Positions 13,957 through 39,744 of a DNA stretch of 64,000 bases are shown piece by piece. Within the stretch, counting starts at the first letter, position 1; the number at the start of each line of letters is the position of its first letter. The notes below the pieces were generated by a model. It was not told where the DNA came from. It was given only the letters and a program-made list of their open reading frames with translations, and made no database searches. The stretch comes from Heterotrichella gracilis (Eukaryota; Sar; Xanthophyceae; Tribonematales; Xanthonemataceae): the NCBI GenBank assembly GCA_032358255.1, contig JAULBX010008107.1, positions 54,483-118,482 on the forward strand. Direction: 5' to 3'. The translations under genes were made by a program, and so were the position numbers.

Positions 13957-14457
13957 TTGAATTGGAAGGTAGTATACGTTAATTCCCGCGCTGAAAAAAA
14001 AGTGGGAGAACGCCTCACACAAGAGGGGATTGAAAATTATGTGCCGCTTAAAAAAGAACTCAAACAATGGAGTGACCGTCAGAAAATGGTAGAAAGTCCT
14101 TTGATAAATGGTTATGTATTTGTGAAGCCGGATACCTTGCAAAGGGATAAGGTTTTACAGTTTCAAGGCGTTTTGCAGTATGTAAGATATAATTCAGATG
14201 ATGCCACTATTCGTGATATTGAAATTGAAGCCTTGAGGTCTATTGAAGAGAAGGGTTATTTTGTTGAAGGAAAGTTTTCGGAGGATTGGAAAAGTGGAGA
14301 TAAAGTGATGATCCAGCATGGTCCATTTAAAGGTTTATACGGTTCAGTTAAAACACAGGCTAAAGAAAATATCTATAACATCTCAATTGAGGGTATTGGT
14401 TATTCTCTGACGGTGAAGTTGCCTTCGGAAGTCATTGAGAAATCATCTAAAAACTAA
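13957..14457 (+). CDS. UpxY-family transcription antiterminator (NusG-like)
   Basis: 166 residues with the NusG N-terminal domain WKVVYVNSRAEKKVGERL at residues 3-20, LINGYVFVK near 48-56, and a C-terminal KOW-like segment GDKVMIQHGPFKGLYGSV near 110-127. Bacteroidota paralogs (UpxY) ride RNA polymerase through long surface-polysaccharide operons and stop early termination. It is the first gene of the ~28-kb plus-strand operon, 24 bp ahead of the exporter gene. The start must be TTG at 13957: the next in-frame ATG would delete the conserved N-terminus. Confidence 0.9.
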   Translation: MNWKVVYVNSRAEKKVGERLTQEGIENYVPLKKELKQWSDRQKMVESPLINGYVFVKPDTLQRDKVLQFQGVLQYVRYNSDDATIRDIEIEALRSIEEKGYFVEGKFSEDWKSGDKVMIQHGPFKGLYGSVKTQAKENIYNISIEGIGYSLTVKLPSEVIEKSSKN

Positions 14458-14481: not shown

Positions 14482-15333
14482 ATGCAAGAAAAAGAAGAAC
14501 ACTGGGATTTAATAATTGGACCAAAACGCCATTTATTAGATATTAATTTAAAGCAAGTTTATGCTTATCGTGACTTGCTTATGATGTTTGTAAAACGTGA
14601 CTTTGTGACGTTTTATAAACAAACAATTCTTGGTCCTATTTGGTTTTTTATTCAACCCATTTTAACAACCATTATTTATTTGGTCATATTTGGTCGTATT
14701 GCCGGTCTCTCCACCGATGGTGTTCCGCAAGTGGCTTTTTATTTGGCCGGTATTACAATTTGGAATTACTTTTCTGAAACCTTGACTACTATATCCAATG
14801 TTTTCATTACCAATTCGGCCATATTTGGTAAGGTTTATTTTCCTAGACTTATAATGCCTTTATCCATTGTTGTTTCGGGATTGATGAAATTCTCAATTCA
14901 ATTTTTGTTGTTTTTGATTGCAGTGCTTTATTATACTTTCATTCATCAAAGCATTCACCCCAATATATGGATGCTGACAACACCTCTTTTAATTCTCATG
15001 ATGGCTTCTTTATCACTTGGCATTGGTATGATTTTTTCTTCACTCACCTCCAAATACAAAGACCTTACCTTTTTACTCACTTTTGGTATTCAATTGTTTA
15101 TGTACGCTACGCCAGTTATTTATCCTACTTCTATACTTTCGCCAAAATTAAAAATGATCATGAGTTGGAACCCTTTAACAGGTATTTTTGAATGTTTTCG
15201 TTATGCATTTTTAGGAGCAGGTGATTTTACCCCAAGCATGCTCCTTTATAGTGCAACTGTTATTATTGGCATACTAATTATTGGAACCTTGATATTTAAT
15301 AAAATTGAAAAGAGCTTTACCGATTCAATTTAA
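14482..15333 (+). CDS. wzm: ABC-2 type polysaccharide exporter, permease subunit
   Basis: 283 residues with about six membrane segments (e.g. WFFIQPILTTIIYLVIFG, LIMPLSIVVSGLMKFSIQFLLF, FLLTFGIQLFMYATPVIYP). The N-terminal YRDLLMMFVKRDFVTFYKQTILGPIW is the typical interface motif of Wzm/TagG permeases. With the ATPase gene 18 bp downstream it would flip or export a lipid-linked glycan across the inner membrane. It stands in for a Wzx flippase, of which none is seen. Confidence 0.93.
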   Translation: MQEKEEHWDLIIGPKRHLLDINLKQVYAYRDLLMMFVKRDFVTFYKQTILGPIWFFIQPILTTIIYLVIFGRIAGLSTDGVPQVAFYLAGITIWNYFSETLTTISNVFITNSAIFGKVYFPRLIMPLSIVVSGLMKFSIQFLLFLIAVLYYTFIHQSIHPNIWMLTTPLLILMMASLSLGIGMIFSSLTSKYKDLTFLLTFGIQLFMYATPVIYPTSILSPKLKMIMSWNPLTGIFECFRYAFLGAGDFTPSMLLYSATVIIGILIIGTLIFNKIEKSFTDSI

Positions 15334-15351: not shown

Positions 15352-16593
15352 ATGATTGCCATAAAAGCAGAAAATATTTCAAAACAATACCGCCTGGGAA
15401 GAGTTGGTTCCGGTACACTAAGCCATGACTTAAACCGTTGGTGGCATACGGTGCGTGGCAAAGAAGACCCGTATTTAAAAATTGGAGAAACAAACGACCG
15501 TGGAACCAAAGGCGAAAGCGACTATGTGTGGTCGCTAAAGAATATTAATTTTGAAGTGCAACAGGGCGAAGTGTTGGGTATTATTGGTAGAAATGGCGCC
15601 GGTAAATCGACCTTACTCAAATTACTCAGCCAAATCACACAACCTACTACGGGGCAGTTTAAAATTAAAGGACGCATTGCTTCATTATTGGAAGTAGGAA
15701 CAGGATTTCACCCGGAGATGACAGGCCGGGAAAATATTTTTTTGAATGGTTCTATACTTGGTATGACAAAGGCTGAGATTAAAAGTAAGTTTGATGAAAT
15801 TGTTGATTTTTCAGGCATTGAACGTTATGTGGATACGCCGGTAAAACGTTATAGCTCGGGCATGTATGTGCGATTGGCTTTTGCTGTGGCAGCACATTTA
15901 GAATCTGAAATTTTAATTTTGGATGAAGTCCTCGCGGTAGGCGATGCTGAGTTTCAAAAAAAATGCCTCGGAAAAATGAAAGATGTGAGTACACAGGGAA
16001 GAACGGTTTTATTTGTGAGCCATAACATGTTAGCCGTTAAATCTTTATGTTCTTCCGGATTGTGGTTAGACAAAGGAGAAATAATAAATACAGGCGATAT
16101 TCAATCTGTGACGGATGCCTATGAGTCAAGAAACAGTCAAACTGTTTCGTCGGAAGTGATAATTGAAAAGGCGGTAAAAGGATTTACAGTACATTCAATA
16201 AATGTATCAAACAATGGTGTTAATGGAAATTTCGATATTGACCAAGATTTAACATTTAATATTAATGTTTCAAGCGAAACGGACTTTAATAAAATAAACA
16301 TTAATTTATTTTTTAATACCAATGAAAGTGGGGCTTTAATTTTTGTTACATGCAGCGAAGCAACAAAATTTGCAAAAGGAAAGAGTACCTATACCTGTAC
16401 CATTCCTGCCAGAACTTTAAATGACAACATTTACAGCATTGATTTAATGATAGTAGAAGGGGCAAGCGAGCCAATTTTAAATCTTCAAGGTGTAATCTCA
16501 ATAGAAGGTGTTGAGGAAAAAAGAGAAGGAGGTTGGCTCTCCAAATTCCCAGGATTAATCCGTCCACAAAATTTCAAATGGACTAAACTATAA
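15352..16593 (+). CDS. wzt: ABC polysaccharide exporter ATPase with C-terminal glycan-binding domain
   Basis: 413 residues. Walker A GRNGAGKST (79-87), signature YSSGM (167-171) and Walker B ILILDE (187-192) are all intact. From about residue 275 to the end is an extra beta-sandwich domain as in Wzt proteins that read a modification on the non-reducing end of the O-polysaccharide. This points to export of a finished, terminally capped polymer, and methyltransferase and acyltransferase genes for such a cap are present downstream. Four bp separate it from the next gene. Confidence 0.93.
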   Translation: MIAIKAENISKQYRLGRVGSGTLSHDLNRWWHTVRGKEDPYLKIGETNDRGTKGESDYVWSLKNINFEVQQGEVLGIIGRNGAGKSTLLKLLSQITQPTTGQFKIKGRIASLLEVGTGFHPEMTGRENIFLNGSILGMTKAEIKSKFDEIVDFSGIERYVDTPVKRYSSGMYVRLAFAVAAHLESEILILDEVLAVGDAEFQKKCLGKMKDVSTQGRTVLFVSHNMLAVKSLCSSGLWLDKGEIINTGDIQSVTDAYESRNSQTVSSEVIIEKAVKGFTVHSINVSNNGVNGNFDIDQDLTFNINVSSETDFNKININLFFNTNESGALIFVTCSEATKFAKGKSTYTCTIPARTLNDNIYSIDLMIVEGASEPILNLQGVISIEGVEEKREGGWLSKFPGLIRPQNFKWTKL

Positions 16594-16596
16594 AAA

Positions 16597-17736
16597 ATGA
16601 ATACTTTTAGAATTGCTCTCGATAAAAAAATCTCTGAATCTCAAACAAATAATTTTGGTATTGAAAATTACGATGAGTTCAGATTTGGAAAATACGATGA
16701 TTATAGATTTGGAAAATATGATGTTAACTCGACATTTATAAAGAAAATTATTTTTTTTATTAAAAAGGTAGTAAAGAAAATTATAGCTTATAAACCTAAA
16801 CTAACTAATTATCATCATTTTGATATTGAGAAATATGAAACTCGTTTGCAGAAAATATACGAAAACCTAAATGAACAAGGTAAGACCCTAATTGTAGAGT
16901 TAATAGCATATCGTTTACTAGGAGAAAAAAAAGTAAAACTGAGTAAGAATACGAAAGAATTTAAAGAGGCAGTTTTACTAGGAGAAACATTAGAAGACAA
17001 AAATGACACCTACGATCCTAATTTTATGGGTCTTGTATTGAAAAAAGTGGATCTAAATCCAATAGGTTGTGATATTAAATTCTATTTTAGTGGACCAGGT
17101 ATAGCTACTGATTTTATTCTAGAGCAATATACTTACAAGCAAAATGGTAAGACAATTATTCAGGTTGAAAAAGGCGATATAGTAATTGATGCTGGTGCGT
17201 GCTGGGGAGACACTGCATTGTATTTCGCAAATAAAACGGGCGAAAACGGGAAAGTCTTTTCTTTCGATTTTATTCCAGACAACATGAAATTATTTAAGCT
17301 CAACACTTCTTTTAATCCTCACTTAGAAAAAATAATTCAATTGGTTCCCCATCCCTTATCCAACAAAACAGGTGATGTAATTTATTTTAAAGACAACGGG
17401 CCCGCTAGCAGAGTGGAGTTTAGTCCATTTGAAGGGCAAACAGGCACAACCACAACTTTAACTATTGATGATTTTGTAAAACAAAACAATGTAAGTAAAG
17501 TGGATTTTATTAAAATGGATATTGAAAGTGCGGAGCCAGCAGCATTGAGAGGCGCTATTGAAACCATAAAAAAACACAGACCTAAACTTGCGATCGCTTC
17601 ATACCATGGTATTGACGATTTTGTAAATATCCCGAACTGGATTTTAGATCTTGGCTTAGACTATGAGATATTTATTGATCATTTTACAATTCATGCTGAA
17701 GAAACAGTTTGTTTTGCTAAGCCCAAAAAGAAATGA
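16597..17736 (+). CDS. FkbM-family methyltransferase
   Basis: 379 residues. The C-terminal ~220 residues are an FkbM-type SAM methyltransferase (GDIVIDAGACWGDTALYFA as motif I near 190, IDDFVKQNNVSKVDFIKMDIES near 289-310, KLAIASYHG). The N-terminal 130 residues are charged and contain two FGKYD repeats near 27-40, with no known domain. Likely O-methylates a sugar; the acceptor is unknown. The stop overlaps the next ATG (ATGA). The N-terminal extension is unlike the shorter second FkbM gene at 26136. Confidence 0.85.
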   Translation: MNTFRIALDKKISESQTNNFGIENYDEFRFGKYDDYRFGKYDVNSTFIKKIIFFIKKVVKKIIAYKPKLTNYHHFDIEKYETRLQKIYENLNEQGKTLIVELIAYRLLGEKKVKLSKNTKEFKEAVLLGETLEDKNDTYDPNFMGLVLKKVDLNPIGCDIKFYFSGPGIATDFILEQYTYKQNGKTIIQVEKGDIVIDAGACWGDTALYFANKTGENGKVFSFDFIPDNMKLFKLNTSFNPHLEKIIQLVPHPLSNKTGDVIYFKDNGPASRVEFSPFEGQTGTTTTLTIDDFVKQNNVSKVDFIKMDIESAEPAALRGAIETIKKHRPKLAIASYHGIDDFVNIPNWILDLGLDYEIFIDHFTIHAEETVCFAKPKKK

Positions 17737-18806
17737 TAACAGTAACGAAAACATTTTTACCTCCTTTAAAAGAATATGAGATTTACTTAGAAAGGATCTG
17801 GGATAAACAGCATCTCACCAACCGGGGACCGCTAGTAACGGAGTTGGAAGGCAAGCTAAAGGGTTATTTAAATGTTTCGGATGTCATTGTAACAAACAAC
17901 GGCACCATTCCACTTCAAATAGCACTCAAATTATTGGCTGAAAAAGGAGAAGTGATTACAACTCCGTTTTCTTATGTGGCTACAACTTCTGCAATTTTTT
18001 GGGAAAATTGCAGACCGGTTTTTGTGGATATTCATCCTGAATATTTTAGTATTGATGAAACTAAAATTGAAGCCGCTATAACCCCAAATACTACTACTAT
18101 TCTGGCAACGCATGTTTTTGGAAATCCCTGCAACATAGAGGCGATTGAAATAATTGCAAAAAAGCACAACCTAAAAGTAATTTATGACGCTGCACACTGT
18201 TTTGGTGTTAACTATAACTCCCAGTCAATATTTAATTATGGCGATGTAAGTACTTGTAGTTTTCATGCTACAAAATTATTTCATACTGGTGAAGGCGGAG
18301 CTATGTTTTGCAAAGATCCTGAATTATTTAAGAAATTATTTTACAGTCATAATTTCGGGCATAAAAACAATCTGGAATTTTATGGTTTGGGAATTAATGG
18401 AAAGATATCCGAATTACAAGCCGCAATGGGGTTAGCTGTCTTTCCCTACATGGATACCATTATTGAACAGAGAAAAGAAATTGTAAGTGATTACAATTCT
18501 AATTTAGATTTTTCAAAACTGCAGAAAATAAAAATCCGTGGGAACTGTGATTGGAATTACAGTTACTACCCAGTTGTTTTTAAAACTGAGGAAATATTAC
18601 TTCAGGTAGAATCTGCCTTAAACGCAAAAAATATTTTTCCAAGGAGGTACTTTTATCCTTCGCTGAATACTATTGAATATTGTAAAGGAGAATCCATGCC
18701 GGTTGCTGAATCAATTGCTCAACGCATTTTGTGCTTGCCTTTATACGTTGGGCTGCAATCTGACGATTTGAAAAACATATGCGAACTAATTAACAACCAT
18801 TCATAA
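17733..18806 (+). CDS. DegT/DnrJ/EryC1/StrS sugar aminotransferase
   Basis: 357 residues, PLP-dependent enzyme that converts a keto-sugar nucleotide to an amino sugar. Visible are TPFSYVATTSAI (residues 77-88), YDAAHCFG with D152, SFHATKLFHTGEGG with the PLP lysine K181, and the C-terminal PRRYFYP segment typical of the family. It gives the locus an amino sugar, the natural acceptor for the acyl-activation genes that follow. Starts inside the previous gene's stop (4-bp overlap). Confidence 0.93.
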   Translation: MITVTKTFLPPLKEYEIYLERIWDKQHLTNRGPLVTELEGKLKGYLNVSDVIVTNNGTIPLQIALKLLAEKGEVITTPFSYVATTSAIFWENCRPVFVDIHPEYFSIDETKIEAAITPNTTTILATHVFGNPCNIEAIEIIAKKHNLKVIYDAAHCFGVNYNSQSIFNYGDVSTCSFHATKLFHTGEGGAMFCKDPELFKKLFYSHNFGHKNNLEFYGLGINGKISELQAAMGLAVFPYMDTIIEQRKEIVSDYNSNLDFSKLQKIKIRGNCDWNYSYYPVVFKTEEILLQVESALNAKNIFPRRYFYPSLNTIEYCKGESMPVAESIAQRILCLPLYVGLQSDDLKNICELINNHS

Positions 18807-18807
18807 A

Positions 18808-19506
18808 ATGAAGCTGGCTATCATGCAGCCATATCTCTTTCCTTATGTTGGATACTTCCAACTGATAAATGCGATGGATAAGTTTGTGATGTATGACGAC
18901 GTTAATTTTATAAAAAAAGGCTGGATCAACCGAAATAATATTTTAGTAAATAACCAGGCAAGTCTATTCACCATTCCCTTAAAGGAAGCTAGCCAGAATA
19001 AATTAATAAACGAAATTTATTTATCCGAAGATCAAAAATGGCGAGAAAGTCTACTAAAAACAATTTTAATGGCCTACAAGAAAGCTCCGCATTTTAATGA
19101 GGTATTCGTACTACTAGAAAAAATCATAAAGTCTGAAGTAGAAAAAATAGTTGAATTAATTTTAGTCAGTTTTGAAATACTGAACAATTATATTGGAATT
19201 ACCACGCCCTTAGTTGAATCATCATCGATTTACAACGTGTCTGCGTTGAAAGGACAAGAGCGTATATTAGCAATATGTAAAAAAGAAAACGCAAAAGAAT
19301 ACATTAACCCGATTGGTGGACAAGATTTATATTCAAAATCTCTCTTTCAGGAAAACGGAATTAGACTCAATTTTATTAAGACTCATCCCTTAGAGTATCC
19401 ACAATTTGATAAAGAATTTATACCTTGGCTCTCCATTATAGATGTGCTAATGTTTAATAATAAAGAAGAAATAAAATCAATATTATCCCAATACGAATTG
19501 GTTTAA
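18808..19506 (+). CDS. WbqC-family protein
   Basis: 232 residues starting MKLAIMQPYLFPYVGYFQLI, the signature of WbqC-like proteins, with DDVNFIKKGWINRN at about 31-44 and a C-terminal NPIGGQDLY...FLKT-like segment. The biochemical role of the family is not firmly known; members occur in O-antigen loci next to amino-sugar and acyl-transfer genes and are suspected N-acylation or modification factors. One bp after the aminotransferase stop and 14 bp before an acyl carrier protein, consistent with a role in the same module. Confidence 0.88.
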   Translation: MKLAIMQPYLFPYVGYFQLINAMDKFVMYDDVNFIKKGWINRNNILVNNQASLFTIPLKEASQNKLINEIYLSEDQKWRESLLKTILMAYKKAPHFNEVFVLLEKIIKSEVEKIVELILVSFEILNNYIGITTPLVESSSIYNVSALKGQERILAICKKENAKEYINPIGGQDLYSKSLFQENGIRLNFIKTHPLEYPQFDKEFIPWLSIIDVLMFNNKEEIKSILSQYELV

Positions 19507-19520
19507 TCAAAATAAAAAAA

Positions 19521-19748
19521 ATGAAGTTAAAAAAAATTTTAAAGGAGTCTTTCAACGCCAACGAAACTGAATTATCAGATGAAAAAAAACTAATGAGTTT
19601 TCCTGAATGGGATTCAATGGCACATATGTTTTTTATTACAAAACTTGAAGAAGAATACGAAATTGAACTCACAGGAGATGAAATTGCAGGAATGCAAACT
19701 GTAGGTGATATAAAAAATGTTATTATTTCCAAAAGTAAAGAATTGTAA
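19521..19748 (+). CDS. Acyl/peptidyl carrier protein
   Basis: 75 residues with the carrier-protein motif EWDSMAHMFF; S32 would carry the phosphopantetheine arm. Acidic helix III residues (EYEIELTGDEI) fit the fold. It differs from a housekeeping AcpP (DSL replaced by DSM, odd N-terminus), and its position just before an SDR and an adenylation enzyme marks it as a dedicated carrier for a sugar side chain. Confidence 0.9.
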   Translation: MKLKKILKESFNANETELSDEKKLMSFPEWDSMAHMFFITKLEEEYEIELTGDEIAGMQTVGDIKNVIISKSKEL

Positions 19749-19750
19749 GA

Positions 19751-20497
19751 ATGAATATTTCAGATTCAAAAATAATTATTACTGGTGGAGCGAGGGGCAT
19801 TGGAAATTTTCTAGCTACACAATTGGCTCTTGAAGCAAAGAAAATCTTTGTGATAGATAATAATCAGGAATTGCTGGATCAGATTTTTCTCAAAGAAAAT
19901 ATGAGTGTCAACTTTTGTGATATTACAAATCCGGAGGCCGTACATAAAACAATTAAAAAAATATTTGACGAAGAGGGCGGCGCAAATGTTTGTATTAACA
20001 ACGCTGGAATTATTCACAGCGAACCGTTAATCAATCTCTTGTCTCGTCCTGATAAGAAGCACAACTTAAGTAACTGGCGAAAAGTTATCGATGTAAACCT
20101 TAATTCTGTTTTTTATGTCAGCTCAAATTTTGCCGATCAGCTTGTTTCTAAAAAAGAGAAGGGATTAATTATTAATGTAAGTTCCATTGCGGCGCAGGGG
20201 AATATCGGGCAGTCTGCCTATTCTGCGTCCAAGGCGGCCGTTGAGGCATTGACAAAAACCTGGAGTAAAGAATTAGGTATGTTCAAGATAAGATGCGCTT
20301 GTATTGCTCCTGGGTTCTTTAATACTCCTTCAACAAAAGAAAGTTTAAACGACCACACACTTGAAAAATGGAAAAAAAGTGTGCCGATTGGGAGACTTGG
20401 TGAATTGCAGGAATTACTTTCTGCTGCAAAATTTATTATAGAAAATGACTACTATAATGGAAAGGTTTTAGCAATAGACGGTGGTCTTAGCATATAA
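19751..20497 (+). CDS. Short-chain dehydrogenase/reductase (carrier-linked?)
   Basis: 248 residues, classical SDR: TGGARGIG (11-18) for NAD(P), NNAG (83-86), catalytic S144/S145, Y157, K161, and a PGF segment afterwards. FabG-like size. Two bp after the carrier-protein gene and one bp before the adenylation gene, it could reduce a keto group on a carrier-bound acyl chain, or act on a sugar nucleotide. The sequence alone does not decide. Confidence 0.92.
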   Translation: MNISDSKIIITGGARGIGNFLATQLALEAKKIFVIDNNQELLDQIFLKENMSVNFCDITNPEAVHKTIKKIFDEEGGANVCINNAGIIHSEPLINLLSRPDKKHNLSNWRKVIDVNLNSVFYVSSNFADQLVSKKEKGLIINVSSIAAQGNIGQSAYSASKAAVEALTKTWSKELGMFKIRCACIAPGFFNTPSTKESLNDHTLEKWKKSVPIGRLGELQELLSAAKFIIENDYYNGKVLAIDGGLSI

Positions 20498-20498
20498 C

Positions 20499-22058
20499 AT
20501 GACAACCAAACCAGCATATAATTATAACTTAGGTCTGGCTTTTTACTCTGTCGCTTTAGCGAATGCAAACAAAGTAGCTTTGCGTTTTCCAGACGGATCA
20601 GAAGTAAATTATAAGTACTTAAATAATTTATCTAATCAAATTGCTCGGTTCATTTTGTCAAAGGGAATAGTGAGTGGACAAGTTATTGCAATTTTTAATA
20701 ACAAATCAGTCTATGGTTATTCATTAATGCTTGCGTGCCTCAAGACAGGGATAATTTATACTAACCTTGATAATAATAGTCCTTGGGCAAGAATAGAAAA
20801 AATTCTCAATAACTGTGAGCCATCCTTAGTTTGTTTTGATGATACAGCTTTGCATTTTAAAGAAATTCTTGGAAATACAAACAGTGATGTGGCTGTTTTA
20901 AATATTCCTTCAGAAGAAACAAGAGCGGAGGTTGATAAATTTTCTAAAGAGAATTTAACAGAAACAACCTCCATACATGGAGGCACACCTGCATATATTA
21001 TGTTTACATCTGGTTCAACTGGTTTTCCTAAGGGAGCAGTAATGAGTCATTCTAATCTTCTTAATTTTGTTCAATGGTCGCAACAAACATTTGGCATTAC
21101 AAACAATGATGTATTCACGAATGTTAATCCGATCTATTTCGATAATTCTGTTTTTGATTTTTATTCTTCGGTGTTTAACGGTGCCATTTTGGTACCCATT
21201 AATCAGAATATTGCCAAAGACGCAAAAGCCCTGGTAAAAGCCATAAATGATTCACGCTGTACGATTTGGTTTTCAGTCCCTTCTCTTTTAGTATACTTGC
21301 TAACGAACAGAGCGTTAACTGCATCTGATTTTGCAAGCATTAAAAGTATTTCTTTTGGCGGGGAAGGATTTCCTAAAAATAAACTCAAACAATTGTACAC
21401 TCTTTTTGGAAATAGGATTAACCTTTTCAATGTTTACGGTCCAACAGAATGTACTTGCATTTGCTCTTCTTATCTTATAAGCGAAAAGGATTTTGAAAAC
21501 ATGAACGAATTGGCTCCTCTCGGATTTGTTGCTCCAAATTTTAGTTACGAGATTCTATCGGAAAATAATGATAACCCAAATGTAGGCGAACTGGCTCTTG
21601 TAGGACCATGTGTTGGATTGGGCTATTTTAATGATGAAGAAAGAACAAGTAAGTCCTTTGTGCAAAACACCTACAAAAAGTTTGTAGAGCGAATGTATAA
21701 AACCGGTGATTTAGTTGAAAGATCTGAAAATGGTCATCTACATTTTAAAGGCAGAGTCGATAATCAGATTAAGCACATGGGTTACCGCATCGAATTAGAG
21801 GAGGTAGAATCCGCATTTAGCTCTTTGGATTATATTAATGAAGTAGCTGTTATTTATGAAAGAATATCTCCTGAACTAGGATTTATAAGAGCTTATGTAA
21901 GTGTAAATAAAGCTATGGAGTCGGAGTCAATCATGCAAGACATTAAGATGCTTTTACCATCCTACATGATTCCTAAAAGTATTACACAAGTATCTTTATT
22001 GCCAAAAAACAGTAATGGTAAAATAGACAGAAATATGCTTAAAGAATTAATAAAATGA
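20499..22058 (+). CDS. Stand-alone adenylation enzyme, amino-acid-activating (DltA-like)
   Basis: 519 residues of an ANL-superfamily adenylation domain. A3 loop FTSGSTGFPKG (169-179), A4 YFDNSVFD with D215 (the aspartate that holds the amino group in amino-acid-activating members), YGPTE, TGDLV, and A10 NGKIDR with K508. It lacks condensation and carrier domains, so its partner is presumably the carrier protein two genes upstream, as DltA pairs with DltC. It would load an amino acid (or hydroxy acid) for transfer to the glycan. Start ATG 20499, one bp after the SDR stop, preferred over GTG at 20481. Confidence 0.88.
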   Translation: MTTKPAYNYNLGLAFYSVALANANKVALRFPDGSEVNYKYLNNLSNQIARFILSKGIVSGQVIAIFNNKSVYGYSLMLACLKTGIIYTNLDNNSPWARIEKILNNCEPSLVCFDDTALHFKEILGNTNSDVAVLNIPSEETRAEVDKFSKENLTETTSIHGGTPAYIMFTSGSTGFPKGAVMSHSNLLNFVQWSQQTFGITNNDVFTNVNPIYFDNSVFDFYSSVFNGAILVPINQNIAKDAKALVKAINDSRCTIWFSVPSLLVYLLTNRALTASDFASIKSISFGGEGFPKNKLKQLYTLFGNRINLFNVYGPTECTCICSSYLISEKDFENMNELAPLGFVAPNFSYEILSENNDNPNVGELALVGPCVGLGYFNDEERTSKSFVQNTYKKFVERMYKTGDLVERSENGHLHFKGRVDNQIKHMGYRIELEEVESAFSSLDYINEVAVIYERISPELGFIRAYVSVNKAMESESIMQDIKMLLPSYMIPKSITQVSLLPKNSNGKIDRNMLKELIK

Positions 22059-22738
22059 AAAAGGAGATTGTCATTTTCGGAACCGGGAAAATTGCTGAGG
22101 TAATTTATTATTATGCCTTGCAGGAATGTGGTTATAAGGTTGTGGCTTTTACAACAGATGCAACCTATATAAAGGAGAAATCCTTCAAAGGATTACCAGT
22201 AATTCCATTTGAGGAAATCGAAAAGAAACACGCTCCCAACAATTTCGATATGTTTGTTGCGGTGGGCTATCATGACATGAATAAATTACGGGAAAAGAAA
22301 TGTAATGAAGCTATACAAAAAGGTTACACACTTATTTCCATTATTAGTCCTTTAGCTAACGTACCTTCTGATCTGATAAATGGTTATAATTGTTTCATTA
22401 TGTCCCCTGCAATTATTCATCCATGCGTGCAATTGGGAAATAATGTCTTTGTTTGGTCAGGGGCTATGGTAGGGCATCACTCAAAAATTGGCGATCATGT
22501 GTGGTTGACCTCTTGCGCAAATATTGGCGGCAATGTGCAAACCGGTAGTAATTCTTTTTTCGCTGTAAACGCCACCGTGGGTCATAGTGTGAAAATTGGA
22601 AAGGATTGTTTTTTAGGTGCTAATACATTGGTTACAAAAGAACTTTTAGATGGGCAGGTTGTGATCTCAGAATCTTCTAAACCTATTAAACTAAATAGTA
22701 AACAATTTTTGCGTTTATCAAGCTTTTCTTCTCTTTAA
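22055..22738 (+). CDS. NeuD/PglD-like left-handed beta-helix sugar acyltransferase
   Basis: 227 residues: N-terminal Rossmann-like domain (IVIFGTGKIAEVIYYYA, FVAVGYHDMNKLR) and a C-terminal hexapeptide-repeat helix (from about residue 110: CVQLGNNVFVWSGAMVGHH, GANTLVTKEL). Such enzymes transfer acetyl from acetyl-CoA, or other acyl groups from CoA or carrier protein, to the amino of UDP-amino sugars. Overlaps the adenylation gene by 4 bp. A prime candidate for delivering the group loaded by the carrier protein. Confidence 0.88.
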   Translation: MKKEIVIFGTGKIAEVIYYYALQECGYKVVAFTTDATYIKEKSFKGLPVIPFEEIEKKHAPNNFDMFVAVGYHDMNKLREKKCNEAIQKGYTLISIISPLANVPSDLINGYNCFIMSPAIIHPCVQLGNNVFVWSGAMVGHHSKIGDHVWLTSCANIGGNVQTGSNSFFAVNATVGHSVKIGKDCFLGANTLVTKELLDGQVVISESSKPIKLNSKQFLRLSSFSSL

Positions 22739-22758
22739 TTAAATATAACCTTAGTAAA

Positions 22759-23301
22759 TTGAATTTCCAAATATCTTCTGAACGTATTTTTTTAAGACCT
22801 CCTACTTTAACGGATGTGCCAAGATTATTTGAACTAATGTCTGATAAAAATCTAACGAAATTTTTGTCATGGGAACCACACATAAATCCGGAAATCACAA
22901 GTACGGTTGTGCAAAGTTTAATGGAAGCTCAAAAAAATGACAAAGGTTATCATTGGTGTGTTTGCATTGATGAAGAAATAATTGGACTTGTATCCTTAAT
23001 TGATTTGAAACGCAAAATAAGAACATGGACAATTAATAGAGCCGAGCTATCCTATTGGATTGGCTGTTCCTATCAAGGAAAGGGATATGCAACCGAGGCA
23101 AGTAAATTAATACTTGATTTTGGTTTTAAGTATCTCGGACTACATAAAATAATTATTGCCCATGCTAACGAAAATTTAGAATCTCAGAAAATTTGTTCAA
23201 AGCTTAATTTTAAATTATATGCTACCGAACACGATGCCTTTCAAAAAAACAATATTTGGCACAATTTACTTTGGTATGAATTAATACAAAATGCAAAATG
23301 A
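22759..23301 (+). CDS. GNAT-family N-acetyltransferase
   Basis: 180 residues, RimJ/RimL-like GNAT: ISSERIFLRPPTLTDVPRLF (5-24), ELSYWIGCSYQGKGYATEA (the pyrophosphate-binding loop G-x-G-x-G/A, near 93-111), KIIIAHANENLESQKICSKLNF. It would N-acetylate an amino sugar or amino acid side chain. The start is TTG at 22759, since the first in-frame ATG (residue 28) would remove the first conserved strand. Its stop overlaps the next ATG by 4 bp. A second acyltransferase in this module. Confidence 0.88.
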   Translation: MNFQISSERIFLRPPTLTDVPRLFELMSDKNLTKFLSWEPHINPEITSTVVQSLMEAQKNDKGYHWCVCIDEEIIGLVSLIDLKRKIRTWTINRAELSYWIGCSYQGKGYATEASKLILDFGFKYLGLHKIIIAHANENLESQKICSKLNFKLYATEHDAFQKNNIWHNLLWYELIQNAK

Positions 23302-24323
23302 AAATAGAAAACTTAGAAAAATACAGATGTCCGGCTTCTGGAGAAAAACTGGAATTTGACAAATCCTTAAAAATCAATGGTGACGAAGCAATTGAAGGAT
23401 TTTTAGTTTCATTAAATTCTAAGAACAGATACCCTTTGGTAGATGGAATCCCTGATTTTACAATATACAGCGAAGTTGAAAAAAACGAGTATGCAGTAAA
23501 CCTATTTAAAAATAAAGCAAAGGAGTACGATAAATATCAGCACTTATCTTTCGAAACATTTTACCAGGATGAAACTGATGTGCGAAATTCAATGATTGAT
23601 AAATTAAATCTTAGTCCCAGAGCTAAAGTCTTAGAAGTTAACGCAGGCACAGGAAGGGATTCCGTTTTAATTTCAAAAAGATTGTCGAAAGAAGGTCTTT
23701 TAAATGTTCAAGATATTTCCCGTGATATGCTTATGTTTTGTAACGAAAAATTAATCACGGCGGAGGTACCTGTGGAAATTCATCAGGGGAATGCGAGTAA
23801 ACTTCCATACGCCGACAATACATTTGATGCTGTATACAGTTTTGGCGGAGTTGGAATGAACACTTATTCTAATAACAAAGAAGCCATAGCTGAAATGGTT
23901 CGGGTAACTAGGTTTGACGGAAGAATTGTTTTTGGTGGATTAAGTCTCGCTCCATGGCTTAGAAATACAAATTTTGCCAAGGTTTTGGTCAATCATAATT
24001 CTCATTATGCTAATGAAATTCTTTTAAATGACCTGCCAATTGAAGCGCGTAATTTAAACCTGAATTGGATTTTATCTGGAGCAGGTTTTGTAGTAGATTT
24101 TACAGTAGGCAAAGGTGAACCCAAAGCGAATTTCGATTATGAAATACCAGGTCCAAGAGGTGGGACACTTTTAACTAGGTATCTTGGTAATTTAGAAGGT
24201 GTAACACTAGAGACAAAAGAATTAGCCATAAAAGCACGGGAGAAGTTAGGAGTTTCAATGCATCAGTGGCTAAATGAACTTATTAAAAAGGAAGCTGAAA
24301 AAGTATTAACGGAAAAAAAATAA
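23298..24323 (+). CDS. SAM-dependent methyltransferase with Trm112-like N-terminus
   Basis: 341 residues. Residues 1-58 resemble the Trm112/UbiE-associated small domain (YRCPASGEKLEF then YPLVDGIPDF) but with only one of the expected cysteines, so probably no zinc. Then a class I methyltransferase: VLEVNAGTGRDSVL (near 111-124), YSFGGVGMNTYS, DGRIVFGG. In glycan loci such proteins methylate sugars or cofactors. Followed 2 bp later by the next gene. Confidence 0.85.
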   Translation: MKIENLEKYRCPASGEKLEFDKSLKINGDEAIEGFLVSLNSKNRYPLVDGIPDFTIYSEVEKNEYAVNLFKNKAKEYDKYQHLSFETFYQDETDVRNSMIDKLNLSPRAKVLEVNAGTGRDSVLISKRLSKEGLLNVQDISRDMLMFCNEKLITAEVPVEIHQGNASKLPYADNTFDAVYSFGGVGMNTYSNNKEAIAEMVRVTRFDGRIVFGGLSLAPWLRNTNFAKVLVNHNSHYANEILLNDLPIEARNLNLNWILSGAGFVVDFTVGKGEPKANFDYEIPGPRGGTLLTRYLGNLEGVTLETKELAIKAREKLGVSMHQWLNELIKKEAEKVLTEKK

Positions 24324-24325
24324 AG

Positions 24326-25276
24326 ATGTTTAAGTGGGAAAAATTAGGACAGGTCTTTAATCCTACAAAGGTAGGTAAGTATGATTGGATGCAGGAGCAA
24401 GCTCAAAATCCATATCCTGTGGATATGGGAAATTATGTAAGAGTTTATTTCAATTGCAGAGGAAAGAGAGATAGTGAAGGGAAAAGTACGAGCTATGCGG
24501 GTTATGTAGATCTGAATAAAAATAATTTTTTTGAAATATTAGACTTAGCTGAGCAGCCTCTTTTACAGCATGGTTCAAAAGGTTCGTTTGATGAGTTTGG
24601 TATAATGGCAGGTGCAGTTACTCTTATTAATAATGAGTTCTATCTATATTATGTTGGCTGGACGAGAATGCTTTCTGTTCCGTATAACTGGACTATAGGC
24701 TTAGCAAAAAGTAGTGACGGTAAAAAATTTACCAGATTCGGAAATGGACCTATTTTGGGAGCAACTTATAGAGAACCTTTTTTACAGGCTGGCTGCTCTT
24801 CTATAATTCAACAGAATGGAGTTTTCCATTTATGGTACACTTCAGGCATCAAATGGATTGATGCTAAGCCAAAACCTGAATCTGTGTATCAGATTATGCA
24901 TGCTTCTTCGCTTGACGGTATTAATTGGGTTCGGAATGGATTTCCGATTATTAAAGAAGTTGTTGAAAATGAAGCGCAAGCTTCTCCTAGTGTAATTGAA
25001 ATGAATGGACGGTGGCACATGTTTTTCAGTTACAGACATTCAGTTGATTTTAGAAATAAGGAAAGAGGTTATAGATTAGGTTATGCATGGTCTGATAATC
25101 TTGAGGAATGGAATAGAGATGACTCTCTAGTTGGATTGCAAGTCTCAGAATCCGGATGGGATTCGGAAATGGTTTGTTACCCAAGTATTATTAAAATCGA
25201 AAACGAAATTTATATTTTTTATTGTGGTAATGATTTTGGAAAAGAAGGTTTTGGTATTGCTAAACTTTTATATTAG
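24326..25276 (+). CDS. Five-bladed beta-propeller glycosidase-like protein
   Basis: 316 residues with blade-type repeats VRVYFNCRGKRDSEG, FYLYYVGWTRM, FHLWYTSG, WHMFFSYRHS and IYIFYCGND, as in GH43/GH68/GH130-like proteins. Conserved acid candidates are in GIMAGAV context (E/D before it) and ENEAQASPSV. No signal peptide, so cytoplasmic; in O-antigen loci related proteins may act as phosphorylases or transferases rather than hydrolases. The substrate is not predictable. TAG stop overlaps the GTG of the next gene. Confidence 0.75.
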   Translation: MFKWEKLGQVFNPTKVGKYDWMQEQAQNPYPVDMGNYVRVYFNCRGKRDSEGKSTSYAGYVDLNKNNFFEILDLAEQPLLQHGSKGSFDEFGIMAGAVTLINNEFYLYYVGWTRMLSVPYNWTIGLAKSSDGKKFTRFGNGPILGATYREPFLQAGCSSIIQQNGVFHLWYTSGIKWIDAKPKPESVYQIMHASSLDGINWVRNGFPIIKEVVENEAQASPSVIEMNGRWHMFFSYRHSVDFRNKERGYRLGYAWSDNLEEWNRDDSLVGLQVSESGWDSEMVCYPSIIKIENEIYIFYCGNDFGKEGFGIAKLLY

Positions 25277-26133
25277 TGGGAAAAATAAAAGTTGCCATAG
25301 CTGTTGCTACTTATAAACATGAAAAATTTATTTCAATTGCTCTTGATAGTGTTTTGGCTCAGAAAACTAATTTCGACTTCTGTGCTTACGTGGGAGATGA
25401 TGCGTCGCCTGACAAAACGCCAGAATTATGCATGGCGTATGCAAACAAGTTTCCAGGCAAAATAAAATTTCTCCCTCGCACTGAAAATAACAGCAGGGAA
25501 AATTCCAAAAACATATACGGGGCTTGCTTGGAGTCTGGAGCAGACTATTTAGCGCTTTTGGACGGTGACGATTACTGGACTGATCCAGAAAAACTGCAAA
25601 AGCAAGTGGACTTTTTAGATAAAAATTTAGCATATTCAGGCGTTTTCCATTATACTCAGCAATTAAATATTGATAACAAGCTTGGATACATTTTTGGTAA
25701 GCATGGTAGCACAATTAACTTTAATGCGAAAGACACCTTTTCTACTCAAGCCTTGTTACATACTTCTTCGTTTTTATTCCGGAAAAATGCAATTGAGTTT
25801 CCTGATTGGTTTTACGAAGTCCACGGGGGGGATTTGGTAGTTTTTTCGATCGTTTCTTCAAAAGGAAAACTCAAATGCATTCCTGAAATAATGAGCGTTT
25901 ATAGAAAGCATTTAGGTGGTTTTACTAAAAGTTCTGTTGCAACGGAGGAAAACCATCACAACAACCGGATAAAACTTATGAAGCTTCTAGACGAGTATCA
26001 TAACTTTAAGTACCATAAAGATGCCTTAAAAATAATTCGCTTCCATCAGAATGCTTTAAGTGGAAAATTCAATGAAGGTTTTGTATTCAAGCTAAAAAGA
26101 ATAGTCAAAAGAATAATTAATACTCTTAAATAA
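25276..26133 (+). CDS. Family 2 glycosyltransferase
   Basis: 285 residues, GT-A fold: VAIAVATYKHEKFISIALDSVL at 5-26, YVGDDASPDKT near 38-48, and the metal/nucleotide motif LLDGDDYW near 93-100. Transfers a sugar from a nucleotide sugar to the growing glycan on the inner membrane face. Start is GTG at 25276 overlapping the previous stop by one base. C-terminus ends in a basic helix (KLKRIVKRIINTLK) that could sit on the membrane. Confidence 0.92.
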   Translation: MGKIKVAIAVATYKHEKFISIALDSVLAQKTNFDFCAYVGDDASPDKTPELCMAYANKFPGKIKFLPRTENNSRENSKNIYGACLESGADYLALLDGDDYWTDPEKLQKQVDFLDKNLAYSGVFHYTQQLNIDNKLGYIFGKHGSTINFNAKDTFSTQALLHTSSFLFRKNAIEFPDWFYEVHGGDLVVFSIVSSKGKLKCIPEIMSVYRKHLGGFTKSSVATEENHHNNRIKLMKLLDEYHNFKYHKDALKIIRFHQNALSGKFNEGFVFKLKRIVKRIINTLK

Positions 26134-27810: not shown

Positions 27811-29700
27811 ATGTGTGGCATTGCCGGTATAATAAATTTTTCTGAAAAGGAAGTTGAATATAAGGACTTACATTTATTGTCGGCTTCATTAAAGGAGCGA
27901 GGTCCCGATCATGAAGGTTTATGGAAAAATGATAATGTGGGTTTTGTTCATGCCAGATTAAGTATTTTGGATGTTTCTGATGCTGGCAATCAACCCATGC
28001 ATTTTAACGAGTATACAATTACTTTTAATGGAGAAATTTATAATTTTAAAATAATTCGGGACGAGTTAATAAAACTTGGTTTTACTTTTTTTTCAAGCTC
28101 AGATACCGAGGTTATTTTAAAAGGCTATGCTGCCTGGGGAATAGATGCACTCCTGAATAAACTGGACGGCATGTTTGCTTTCTGTTTATTTGACAAAAAA
28201 AAATCGGAAGCTTTTTTTTGCCGTGATCGTTTAGGCAAAAAGCCATTTTATTTTTTTAAAAATAGGGAACGTTTAATTTTTAGTTCAGAAATAAGAGGTA
28301 TTTGTAAACTGGAAAAAAACTTAACAATCGATTTTGAATCCTTAGATTATTACTTAACCGAATTATCAGTTCCTCAACCTAAAACCATATTTAAGGAGTT
28401 AAAACAAATTGAGCCTGGCAGTTATTTAAGTCTAAATATTAAAAATGCAACTATTAACAACACGAAATATTATCAGTTTTCAATTCATCGTGATGATAAT
28501 AACCGAGACGAATCAATCGTGTTAAAAGAATTAGAAAGTAAGCTCAATAATGCAGTTATCAAAAGAACTATTTCAGATGTTCCTATTGGTTGTTTTTTAA
28601 GTGGAGGAGTAGATTCAGGTTTGATAGTATCAACCTTGGCCATGCATAACAATGAAAGAGTAGATACTTTTTCGATTGGTTTTGGCGATAAAGAGTATAG
28701 CGAATTAGAACTGGCAAATCTGGTTGCAAAGAAGTATAACACCAAACACCACGAATTACTTGTTGAGCCAAAAAATGTTTCTGACTTATTGGTAGAATTG
28801 CTTAACTATATAGCTGAACCTTTTGCAGACCCAAGTATTATTCCAACTTATCTTGTCTGTAATCAAATTTCCAAACACGTAAAAGTGGCATTATCTGGCG
28901 ATGGTGGTGATGAGGTGTTTGGTGGATACGGCGAATTTTTAACGGCGTATAATGCTGATCAGTTTGTAAAGACGAACCCTTCATCAAACACTCGTAGATT
29001 AAAGGCTCTTGGGAATCAAATAGGATCAAAACTGGGCTTGCCTAATAACAAAAACGCCTTGTATCATTCCTTTCATGGGATGAATGGTGCCCGAAAAATG
29101 AGCAGATACATGGGTTTTGATACAAAAGAAAAATCACAATTGTACCATTCAAATTTGCAAGACAAAAAAAATTTTGGCGAAGGTATTTTAAATAATATTT
29201 GGTCTAAACATGAAATGTCGGCTTCGGTTGATACACTTTTTTTAAGTTCGCTCGATACCCGTTTATTAAGTGGTTATTTGGTAAAAGTAGACAGAATGTC
29301 GATGAAGAATGGTTTAGAAGTACGATCTCCTTTTTTAGATCAAGAATTAATGGAGTTTGCTTTTGGCATTAATGTAGATATTTTGTTTGGAAATGGAAAA
29401 TCAGCCAAGTACTTACTCAAGAAAATTGTTGAAAAAAGATACGACGCCAATATATTCACAAGAGAAAAAAAGGGTTTCGAGTTACCAATTAAAAAGTGGA
29501 TGAAAACGGAGTTAAAAACATTAATTCAAGAAGTATTGTTTTCAGATGCATTTAAAAACCGCGCTTTATTTAATCAAACTTATGTAGAAAAGCTAGTGAA
29601 GGACCATTTAAATAATAAAATAGACAACACCTATAAGATTTGGATACTGTTGTGTTTAGAATTGTGGTTTAGAGGCATAGAACAAACGAGAGCTGCATAG
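27811..29700 (+). CDS. asnB: Asparagine-synthetase-like glutamine amidotransferase (first copy)
   Basis: 629 residues. N-terminal Ntn glutaminase starting MCGIAGI (C2 nucleophile after Met removal), with RLSILD and FNGEIYN; then an ATP-pyrophosphatase domain with SGGVDS near 268-273 and SGDGGDEVFGGY near 365-376. In surface-glycan loci such enzymes are often not for free asparagine but convert uronic acids to uronamides. The downstream UDP-uronate-type epimerase supports that reading. Adjacent to fucosyltransferase with a 3-bp gap. Confidence 0.92.
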   Translation: MCGIAGIINFSEKEVEYKDLHLLSASLKERGPDHEGLWKNDNVGFVHARLSILDVSDAGNQPMHFNEYTITFNGEIYNFKIIRDELIKLGFTFFSSSDTEVILKGYAAWGIDALLNKLDGMFAFCLFDKKKSEAFFCRDRLGKKPFYFFKNRERLIFSSEIRGICKLEKNLTIDFESLDYYLTELSVPQPKTIFKELKQIEPGSYLSLNIKNATINNTKYYQFSIHRDDNNRDESIVLKELESKLNNAVIKRTISDVPIGCFLSGGVDSGLIVSTLAMHNNERVDTFSIGFGDKEYSELELANLVAKKYNTKHHELLVEPKNVSDLLVELLNYIAEPFADPSIIPTYLVCNQISKHVKVALSGDGGDEVFGGYGEFLTAYNADQFVKTNPSSNTRRLKALGNQIGSKLGLPNNKNALYHSFHGMNGARKMSRYMGFDTKEKSQLYHSNLQDKKNFGEGILNNIWSKHEMSASVDTLFLSSLDTRLLSGYLVKVDRMSMKNGLEVRSPFLDQELMEFAFGINVDILFGNGKSAKYLLKKIVEKRYDANIFTREKKGFELPIKKWMKTELKTLIQEVLFSDAFKNRALFNQTYVEKLVKDHLNNKIDNTYKIWILLCLELWFRGIEQTRAA

Positions 29701-31905: not shown

Positions 31906-33855
31906 ATGTGTGGTATCGCGGGAATAATAAGTTTAGATAATTCACTGGTAAAGCCGGAAAAAATTACCCGTATGACCGACGAAATAAAACATCGTGGTCC
32001 AGATGGCGAGGGATTCCTATTAACAAATGCATCGCAATACGGCTTGAGTTTAAGTAAACAAAGGCCTGGAGCACTCATAGTAAATCAGGATACTATTCAA
32101 AATTTAGCATTTGGTCATAGGAGACTTTCGATTTTAGACCTTCACACTTCTGCCTCGCAACCAATGATAGAAGCTACAGATCGATATTGGATTGTTTTTA
32201 ATGGCGAAATATACAACCATGTTGATCTTAGAAAAGAACTGGAAGTATTGGGTTGCAAATTCTTAACGAATCATTCTGATACGGAAGTTATATTAAATGC
32301 GTTTGCAACCTGGGGTGTTGAATGCTTAAAGAAATTTAATGGCATGTGGGCTTTTTGCATTTGGGACAAAAAGGAAAACACTTTTTTTATGGCAAGAGAC
32401 CGTGCCGGAAAAAAACCATTTTATTACACAGAGCACATGCAGCAGTTTTATTTTGCCAGCGAATTAAAAGCCATTCTCGTTAATAAGGAGATTTCAAGAG
32501 ATTTGGATGAACGTGCCGTTTACGATTACCTCACTTACATGATGGTGCCATCACCACAAACAATATTTAAAGGAATTCACAAATTGCCTGCCGGACACTA
32601 TTTGCTATTTAAACCAGGACAGACTTATCAACCCATACGTTATTGGAGCGCTTTGACTCATTCGCCCTATTTAAATATTTCTGAAGAAGAAGCAGTAGAA
32701 GGAATTCGTGAACGCATCTATGAAGCCGCACGCTTAAGAATGCTGGCTGATGTCGAAGTAGGAGTTTTATTAAGTGGAGGTCTTGATAGTAGTATTAATT
32801 TAGCTTGTCTAACGAAATATGCCACGCGACCCATTAAGGCGTTTACAGTGGGTTTTGAAAATGGCAAAGGTTATAAAAATGAATTTGAGTATGCCCGAAA
32901 AGTAGCCAAACATTTTTCAGCCGAGTACAATGAACTCACTTTAACTGAAAAGGATTTTTTTGATTTTTATCCAGAAATGGTTTATTATCAAGATGAGCCA
33001 ATTGCAGATACAGCTAATATACCGATTTATTATATTGCAAAAAAAGCGAGAGAGCAAGGGGTGAAGGTTTTATTGGGTGGAGAAGGAAGTGATGAGTTGT
33101 TCGTTGGGTATGAACTTTGGAAGATCGCCAGACAATTCAGCAATGTGATGGAGGGCAAACCAACTCTTGCAGCCATATGCTCATTTCTACATGAGAATTC
33201 ACCGGCCAAAAGCAAACGTATGTATTATCACAATTGGTACGATAAGATCAAACATAAAGAACCTGCCTTTTGGAGCGGTACAGAATTACGTTCAGAAAAA
33301 GAAAAATCAAATATCTTATCGAAAGAATTTAAATCTAAGATTGGCACTTACCGGTCATTTGAACCCATGAAAGAACTATATGATATTTATTCATGGGACG
33401 GTAATTTTGATAAATACGATTGGATGACCGCGGCAGACTTGCAATACAGATTGCCAGATCTTTTATTAGCAAGACTTGATAGAATGTTAATGGCAGCCTC
33501 AGTGGAAGGTAGAAACCCGTTTCTTGATGTGAATGTTATAGAATACGCCATGAAAATCCCAGCTCATCTAAAAACAAAAGGTAAACACGAAAAATACATT
33601 CTCAAAAAGGCTTTTGAAGGGATTCTGCCAAACGATATTATTTATCGAACTAAGGACAGTTTCACAGTGCCGCTTAGTAGCCTTTTCAATACAAAAGATT
33701 ACAAAGAAGTGAGTTTGAATGCCATTCGAAAATTTAATTCTGACACAAACGTATTTTCAGAAAACTATATTCGCTATTTAGAAAGTAACGCAGGCAGTGG
33801 AGAGCTTTGGAACGTTTCAAATCTTGCTTTATGGTATAATCAATTTAGCAATTAG
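31906..33855 (+). CDS. Asparagine-synthetase-like glutamine amidotransferase (second copy)
   Basis: 649 residues. Also MCGIAGII with C2, HRRLSILDL, FNGEIYNH, ATP loop SGGLDSS near 293-299 and GGEGSDELF. It is a clear relative of 27811 but diverged (different interdomain and C-terminal parts), so two distinct uronate or amino-acid amidation steps are likely rather than a fresh duplication. Located between two glycosyltransferase genes in the same operon. Confidence 0.9.
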   Translation: MCGIAGIISLDNSLVKPEKITRMTDEIKHRGPDGEGFLLTNASQYGLSLSKQRPGALIVNQDTIQNLAFGHRRLSILDLHTSASQPMIEATDRYWIVFNGEIYNHVDLRKELEVLGCKFLTNHSDTEVILNAFATWGVECLKKFNGMWAFCIWDKKENTFFMARDRAGKKPFYYTEHMQQFYFASELKAILVNKEISRDLDERAVYDYLTYMMVPSPQTIFKGIHKLPAGHYLLFKPGQTYQPIRYWSALTHSPYLNISEEEAVEGIRERIYEAARLRMLADVEVGVLLSGGLDSSINLACLTKYATRPIKAFTVGFENGKGYKNEFEYARKVAKHFSAEYNELTLTEKDFFDFYPEMVYYQDEPIADTANIPIYYIAKKAREQGVKVLLGGEGSDELFVGYELWKIARQFSNVMEGKPTLAAICSFLHENSPAKSKRMYYHNWYDKIKHKEPAFWSGTELRSEKEKSNILSKEFKSKIGTYRSFEPMKELYDIYSWDGNFDKYDWMTAADLQYRLPDLLLARLDRMLMAASVEGRNPFLDVNVIEYAMKIPAHLKTKGKHEKYILKKAFEGILPNDIIYRTKDSFTVPLSSLFNTKDYKEVSLNAIRKFNSDTNVFSENYIRYLESNAGSGELWNVSNLALWYNQFSN

Positions 33856-38652: not shown

Positions 38653-38656
38653 AACT

Positions 38657-39688: not shown

Positions 39689-39744
39689 GCTCATGTTTTA
39701 TATAAAACATTTTCTCAAACTTTGAACGACACCTTCCTTTAAAA

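Follow-up and report, generated by a model that had tools for sequence, protein, structure and literature searches.

A set of genes in a 64,000-nucleotide stretch of DNA from the Heterotrichella gracilis assembly (contig JAULBX010008107.1, positions 54,483–118,482; here called the window) appears, on balance, to encode a carrier-protein pathway that joins an amino-acid-derived acyl group through an amide bond to an amino sugar in a surface polysaccharide exported by an ABC transporter. The genes are present with their catalytic and attachment residues, and they are inherited as a set. A preliminary description of this DNA had drawn attention to seven consecutive genes, from a DegT aminotransferase to a GNAT acetyltransferase, separated by gaps of 1–20 bp or overlapping by 4 bp. 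Open reading frames together with Pfam and NCBIfam matches bear this out (spacings, in order, of 1, 14, 2, 1, −4, and 20 bp). The proposed extent needed correction at both ends: A start at 18808 leaves out the DegT gene, itself one of the seven, and the operon continues at 23298 with a 4-bp overlap into two further cassette genes. The cassette genes are the following.

17733-18806, + strand: DegT/DnrJ/EryC1 sugar aminotransferase (PF01041, 5e-83; best PDB match 2po3, 8e-49)
18808-19506, + strand: WbqC-family protein (PF08889, 4.6e-78)
19521-19748, + strand: stand-alone carrier protein, 75 amino acids, Ser32
19751-20497, + strand: FabG-like short-chain dehydrogenase/reductase (SDR)
20499-22058, + strand: stand-alone amino-acid adenylation enzyme by sequence, 519 amino acids, ATG at 20499 (PF00501, 1e-67)
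22055-22738, + strand: NeuD/PglD/VioB-like hexapeptide N-acyltransferase
22759-23301, + strand: GNAT acetyltransferase, listed start TTG (PF13302, 7e-31)
23298-24323, + strand: Trm112-headed methyltransferase (PF01209/PF13649)
24326-25276, + strand: GH130-like propeller protein

In the pathway we propose, the adenylation enzyme would activate an alpha-amino acid with ATP and load it onto Ser32 of the carrier, where the SDR would oxidize or reduce the bound group at its beta position. The DegT protein would make an amino group on a nucleotide-linked deoxysugar, and the NeuD-type transferase would move the carrier-bound group onto that amine. The GNAT, or elsewhere a formyltransferase, would then cap the remaining alpha-amine, with a methylation contributed by the Trm112-headed methyltransferase. 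A second or alternative amide between the amino acid and a sugar may be the work of the WbqC protein, whose fold is predicted to be BshC-like.

The cassette recurs in other genomes

A profile of 31 adenylation enzymes, run against species genomes, gave at least 591 stretches, of which at least 545 were confirmed; the analysis covers the 80 best loci. The enzyme was ≥37% identical over its best segment in 41 of the 80 (related loci); the 39 at ≤32% served as controls. Neighborhoods were counted up to 10 kb to each side of the adenylation gene, some stretches ending at contig ends. With neighbor profiles seeded from the 41 related loci, which favors those loci, seven families were enriched (related vs. 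control): SDR (34/41 vs. 0/39), NeuD (33/41 vs. 0/39), acyl carrier protein (ACP; 33/41 vs. 3/39), DegT (32/41 vs. 0/39), GH130-like (31/41 vs. 0/39), WbqC (29/41 vs. 0/39), and the Trm112-methyltransferase (24/41 vs. 0/39), each with a Fisher P-value of at most 1.1e-9. A GNAT of the window's type was found in seven related loci and in no control. The co-inheritance that the preliminary description had suggested looking for elsewhere was thus found, and its counterpart, a set not passed on together, gained no support.

The 33 related loci that have a carrier are tightly composed. All 33 have an SDR and a NeuD, and in all 33 the SDR directly follows the carrier on the same strand; GH130-like proteins are present in 31, DegT in 30, WbqC in 29, and the methyltransferase in 24. 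Gene order and strand vary between loci (mixed strands in L010, L014, L016, L023, and L030), which fits a set retained by function rather than a single old operon. As labeled in their records, the carrier loci span nine phyla, with labels that include Bacteroidota, Ignavibacteriae, Proteobacteria (alpha, beta, and gamma), Desulfovibrionaceae, Sulfurimonas, Acidobacteria, Melainabacteria, Lachnospiraceae, and Chthoniobacterales, whereas L015 is labeled simply "bacterium"; many of these loci come from metagenome-assembled genomes, so individual taxon labels may be wrong.

Genomes sampled by class or family gave few matches to the adenylation enzyme: 3 of 198 in the class of Niastella caeni, 5 of 244 in its family, and 5 of 274 in the class of Undibacterium pigrum. 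Among these matches, G001, G003, G004, and G006 were already known genomes, G213 carries the L006 contig (enzyme 100% identical), and G570 and G686 were left aside because their matches lie in very long, megasynthase-like frames (6896 and 2226 amino acids). Also not counted was G316 (L112), whose enzyme is closest to the control domains and is flanked only by carrier-like genes. Four new loci remained: L108 and L109, which are 91% alike, plus L110 and L111. Each has DegT, WbqC, ACP, SDR, NeuD, and GH130-like genes; the methyltransferase is found in L110 only. With so few matches per genome set, yet six families in each of four new loci, the cassette is rare per genome and well preserved where present. 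No DNA match to 18808-22738 was found among 5,426 Escherichia coli genomes. Among plasmids, the adenylation enzyme was matched in 408 records, all below 60% identity, and the 25 listed were 29%–32% identical.

As a separate observation, L007, L008, L012, and L014 each have two GH130-like genes on opposite strands, one of them adjoining NeuD.

Carrier, adenylation enzyme, and reductase

The carrier falls just below the PF00550 gathering cut-off (19.0 vs. 20.8 bits) and matches an NCBIfam ACP subfamily at 1.5e-8, below that model's cut-off. Its nearest PDB entry is 2lml (7.8e-6), probably GmACP3. We call the protein a carrier because of its NCBIfam ACP matches, Ser32, and its PDB matches. An alignment of 31 rows (30 loci plus the window, with L010, L022, and L040 excluded by a length filter) shows the serine in 30, and the remaining row is a masked sequence. 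A carrier without phosphopantetheinylation, named at the outset as a finding that would speak against the pathway, therefore gained no support, since the attachment serine is kept.

Judged by its sequence, the enzyme at 20499-22058 is an adenylation domain of the amino-acid type; TIGR01733 is its best family model (314.3 bits, cut-off 317.4), and it lies far above the PF00501 cut-off. The residues first singled out, Ser32 of the carrier and D215 (motif A4) and K508 (motif A10) of this enzyme, proved correct with numbering from the ATG at 20499. The aspartate is kept in 40/40 related loci that retain that segment (L041 is incomplete there), and the lysine is kept in 41/41. The A4 aspartate of adenylation domains is the contact for the alpha-amine, and we confine substrate-signature claims to these two residues. 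A fatty-acid substrate, which the preliminary description had listed as a possible refutation, is made less likely by D215.

The closest models to the SDR are 3-ketoacyl-ACP reductases; it scores 244.6 bits against NF006072 (PRK08217), below that model's cut-off of 298. Across 35 rows, Ser144 and Tyr157 are invariant and Lys161 is at least 90% conserved. The FabG-like GNxGQ..Y..K pattern is present, and most rows have an acidic residue ending strand 2; such a residue often accompanies the use of NAD(H).

These reductase features give the best-surviving alternative its footing, namely that a hydroxy acid or another carboxylic acid lacking an alpha-amine is activated, its beta-keto group is reduced by the SDR, and NeuD transfers a 3-hydroxyacyl group, in the style of the viosamine island or of Vibrio cholerae O1 tetronate. 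The SDR is nearest to 3-ketoacyl-ACP reductase models and keeps their pattern; the flagellin of Pseudomonas syringae carries D-Quip4N(3-hydroxy-1-oxobutyl)2Me, made with vioR and vioB (PMC3927599; sources are cited here and below for their available portions), and comparable flagellar-island gene sets have been assigned to fatty-acid synthesis by those who described them (PMC4875605, PMC7874193). On the other hand, the best model for the activating enzyme is an amino-acid adenylation domain, its A4 aspartate is kept in all 40 related loci that retain the segment, and a scan of 30 genes lying between 9540 and 42103 found no ketosynthase. We consider a hydroxyacyl side chain unlikely.

The transfer step

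We assign transfer in the amino-acid pathway to NeuD. The window protein scores 157.0 bits against TIGR03570 (cut-off 160.8), and its PDB matches are perosamine N-acetyltransferase (4ea7, 5e-16), a pilin glycosylation protein, and VioB. Pairwise distances of the adenylation enzyme, ACP, SDR, and NeuD correlate at 0.41–0.60, with NeuD and the adenylation enzyme at 0.60. In a midpoint-rooted FastTree phylogeny, 39 NeuD proteins from adenylation loci (a number that includes the window and the L006/L107 duplicate) separate from five ordinary NeuD proteins. There is also a precedent in VioB, as P. syringae mutants in vioR (a reductase) or vioB (NeuD type) are without N-acylated viosamine (PMC3927599). 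The assignment follows from these distances, the tree position, the precedent, and the presence of NeuD in every carrier locus, and makes NeuD a better candidate than WbqC for removing the group from the carrier.

WbqC had been put forward in the preliminary description as a possible transfer factor, and one part of that suggestion holds up: Its predicted fold resembles those of BshC and the class I aminoacyl-tRNA synthetases, with the BshC core fold present in the predicted model. The window protein is a clear family member (PF08889, 262.4 bits, cut-off 21.3) of 232 residues, and BshC (4wbd) has 540. A Foldseek comparison of WbqC with BshC gave an E-value of 1.8e-3 and a TM-score of 0.46, and a Foldseek search with the WbqC model gave no match at E ≤0.001. 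Pfam found PF08889 in the window protein and not BshC (PF10079), and a WbqC profile run against PDB sequences found no BshC. A relation by sequence was rejected after hhalign of a 54-row WbqC alignment against 13 BshC sequences (probability 0.3%, E 0.24). With no sequence match and no significant Foldseek match, the WbqC–BshC link is one of predicted fold.

The other part of the suggestion did not hold. All 29 loci with a strong WbqC match, in stretches of about 7 kb to each side (less at contig ends; 3 kb in L144), lack an adenylation gene, and one has a carrier; at 1e-80, the adenylation profile matched only G001, G003, and G213 among the 198 genomes behind these loci. We accordingly rejected the rule that WbqC generally requires the adenylation enzyme. 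We therefore regard it as improbable that WbqC, rather than NeuD, transfers the aminoacyl group from the carrier to the amino sugar, with NeuD acetylating another position; the BshC-like predicted fold speaks for such a role, whereas the strong WbqC loci just described, the four carrier loci that have no WbqC (L013, L015, L026, and L038), the weak Foldseek match, and the nonsignificant profile comparisons speak against it. More speculative, and decidedly improbable, is a wider idea, that WbqC and BshC form one superfamily with the aminoacyl-tRNA synthetase fold that makes aminoacyl amides on amino sugars, the cassette WbqC taking a thioester-bound amino acid from a dedicated carrier. If true, glycans would gain their amino-acid side chains by a nonribosomal route that needs no condensation domain, and this would hint that BshC seems inactive in vitro for want of an activated, partner-bound amino acid.

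We also noted several features of WbqC more generally. WbqC is found in 94 of 99 genomes of the Niastella caeni class, with many matches to a lower-scoring form, possibly a housekeeping WbqC. Ten loci from these genomes (L172–L181) are without cassette partners at the strict score except for one SDR-like gene. At L153:2688-4480, on an 8.6-kb contig, a DegT–WbqC pair has genes for an outer-membrane barrel and a TonB plug as neighbors, and is perhaps the smallest DegT–WbqC unit. A BshC gene is present on contig C1 of the host assembly.

Capping, methylation, and points against the pathway

The window GNAT is a possible N-cap enzyme for the amino acid, and other loci have a different GNAT (u2) or a formyltransferase (u9) at a similar place. 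Candidate cap enzymes were found at strict scores in 20/33 carrier loci versus 0/29 WbqC-only loci, and at loose scores in 6/29 WbqC-only loci, in stretches of differing length (up to 21.6 kb vs. up to 14.7 kb). A Pfam scan of 20 chosen genes from six WbqC-only loci (L145, L151, L153, L155, L157, and L161) brought out GNATs in L155 and L161 that the profiles had missed. Exclusivity of cap enzymes to adenylation loci was rejected, as they are present in at least 8/29 WbqC-only loci, and it is not used as evidence. The Trm112-methyltransferase was found in 24/33 carrier loci versus 0/29 WbqC-only loci at the strict score (27 vs. 4 at the loose score); the Trm112-like head of the window protein matches Trm112_arch at 26 bits, below its cut-off. 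For the GH130-like protein, the fold match establishes the fold only.

Several points weigh against an amino-acid-loading pathway. The proposal is built on genes, and its substrate and product are predicted. The A4 aspartate is also found in 36/39 control domains, so it marks the amino-acid type and not the cassette's enzyme family. Eight of the 41 related loci are without a carrier in the stretch examined, some of these stretches stopping at contig ends. The adenylation enzyme is not the family whose distances correlate best with those of NeuD, since the GH130-like protein (0.67) and the methyltransferase (0.74) both give higher values, and all 28 family pairs correlate, a pattern that shared descent alone could produce. 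Five NeuD proteins of WbqC-only loci nest among the cassette NeuD proteins with no carrier gene nearby, suggesting that a carrier is not a requirement for this NeuD clade. A candidate N-cap enzyme is found in only 23/33 carrier loci even at the loose score, and GNATs also occur in WbqC loci without a carrier (L155, L157, and L161).

That there is no single pathway here, only separate modification genes that have gathered at a variable surface locus, or that the genes serve a small-molecule pathway with no link to the glycan, would agree with the mosaic nature of surface-polysaccharide loci and with distance data suggesting two subsets (adenylation enzyme/ACP/SDR and DegT/WbqC/GH130-like/methyltransferase), but is very unlikely indeed given a set kept over nine phyla through changes of order and strand, the constant ACP, SDR, and NeuD combination, and its recurrence in newly sampled genomes.

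The surrounding locus

By its sequence, the window appears to contain an ABC-exported O-antigen locus. The 14 genes checked between 14482 and 26849 lie on a single strand with spacings of −4 to 20 bp, and glycosyltransferases and modification genes lie downstream from the ABC transporter. Genes flanking the cassette are the following.

9540-11915: Wzz/AAA_31 protein
13957-14457: NusG-like protein
14482-15333, + strand: ABC transporter permease (PF01061, 7e-18)
15352-16593, + strand: ABC transporter ATPase (PF00005, 1e-23)
16597-17736, + strand: FkbM-family methyltransferase (PF05050, 1e-17), in the same operon, with a 4-bp overlap with DegT
25276-26133, + strand: GT2 glycosyltransferase (PF00535, 1e-17)

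The transporter pair would provide the export route for the polysaccharide; in the Bacteroidota loci L002–L005, L017, L031, and L064, too, the cassette is preceded by a permease and ATPase pair. Two asparagine-synthase-like amidotransferases (27811-29700 and 31906-33855) possibly amidate acidic sugars, and near the locus end (38585-42103) three open reading frames of 367, 447, and 343 amino acids have no Pfam match at 1e-6. The host assembly comprises 68.5 Mb in 903 contigs. Among the best 120 homologs listed, those named are mostly from Bacteroidota, and one is labeled "soil metagenome." As the assembly is too large for a single bacterium and the homologs are Bacteroidota-like, the contig is probably Bacteroidota DNA inside a eukaryote or mixed assembly.

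Comparison with known systems

Many surface polysaccharides bear amide-linked amino acids; on O-antigen amino sugars, these include N-linked Gly, Ala, Ser, Thr, N-acetyl-allothreonyl, and methylated pyroglutamoyl groups, and the available portions of the sources name no enzymes for them (PMC10609480, PMC3210612). The cassette offers a concrete, testable gene set for such groups, and the ACP–SDR pair, when found together with NeuD and an adenylation enzyme of this kind, could serve as a marker for predicting them from sequence. The predicted fold link to BshC suggests a testable function for the common WbqC family and bears on the BshC mechanism. In the open-licence literature, outside which most subscription journals lie, we found no description of this gene set or of WbqC function. 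The single ideas have precedents, in carrier-linked N-acylation, in islands with an ACP, a ligase, and a reductase, and in O-antigen amino-acid amides; an amino-acid-adenylating version with WbqC, NeuD, methyltransferase, and GH130-like genes as a recurrent cassette was not found described in that literature. The loading pathway of the preliminary description stands in its amino-acid-type adenylation enzyme and its carrier with a phosphopantetheine serine. The gene set, whose combination with WbqC that description could not match to a described pathway, does have precedents in the P. syringae viosamine island and the Aeromonas group II flagellar islands.

The viosamine island (vioA, vioB, vioS, vioR, acp, and vioM) has a DegT protein, a NeuD-type transferase, a small ACP, a 3-oxoacyl-ACP reductase, and a methyltransferase for an N-acylated 4-amino-6-deoxyhexose (PMC3927599), and the combination of DegT, NeuD, ACP, and FabG-like reductase is present in the window. 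It differs in starting its acyl group with a ketosynthase III, VioS, where the window has an amino-acid adenylation enzyme (PMC3927599); no ketosynthase III of this type was found among the 30 genes scanned in the locus. The window cassette also adds WbqC and the GH130-like protein. In the flagellin islands of Aeromonas group II and of enterobacteria, which are likewise sugar-modification loci, an ACP and a 3-oxoacyl-ACP reductase are accompanied by an AMP-dependent synthetase, named CaiC in enterobacteria (PMC7874193, PMC4875605); enterobacterial islands can additionally contain NeuD, DegT, and formyltransferases (PMC4875605). Unlike the cassette, these islands carry luxE/luxC, and their authors read them as fatty-acid or "liposugar" synthesis (PMC7874193, PMC4875605).

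DltA and DltC likewise pair a stand-alone adenylation enzyme with a stand-alone carrier. The likeness to DltA noted in the preliminary description holds at the level of a similar family and fails as a match, the window enzyme scoring about half the DltA equivalog cut-off (289.6 vs. 559.85 bits); the neighbors here make sugars, and no DltB- or DltD-type gene was found among the 30 genes scanned in the locus. The V. cholerae O1 genes VC0248–VC0252 presumably include an ACP and a ligase. They form a several-gene pathway that N-acylates perosamine in an ABC-exported O-antigen, with a hydroxy acid and not an amino acid as the group attached (PMC3441752). GmACP3 of Geobacter metallireducens, a specialized ACP, would be the nearest solved relative of the carrier if 2lml is that protein; a putative role in lipopolysaccharide biosynthesis is given for it in a title cited in PMC4847154.

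Bacillithiol and mycothiol differ in being thiol metabolites rather than surface glycans, and the available portions of the sources name no carrier protein (PMC4360819, PMC12719100). BshC itself has a coiled-coil dimerization domain (PMC4360819). In both pathways, as proposed for the cassette, an amino acid is joined to an amino sugar, by BshC or MshC, and its amine is then capped, by NmbA N-methylation or MshD N-acetylation (PMC4360819, PMC12719100); the joining protein of bacillithiol, BshC, has the fold predicted for WbqC.

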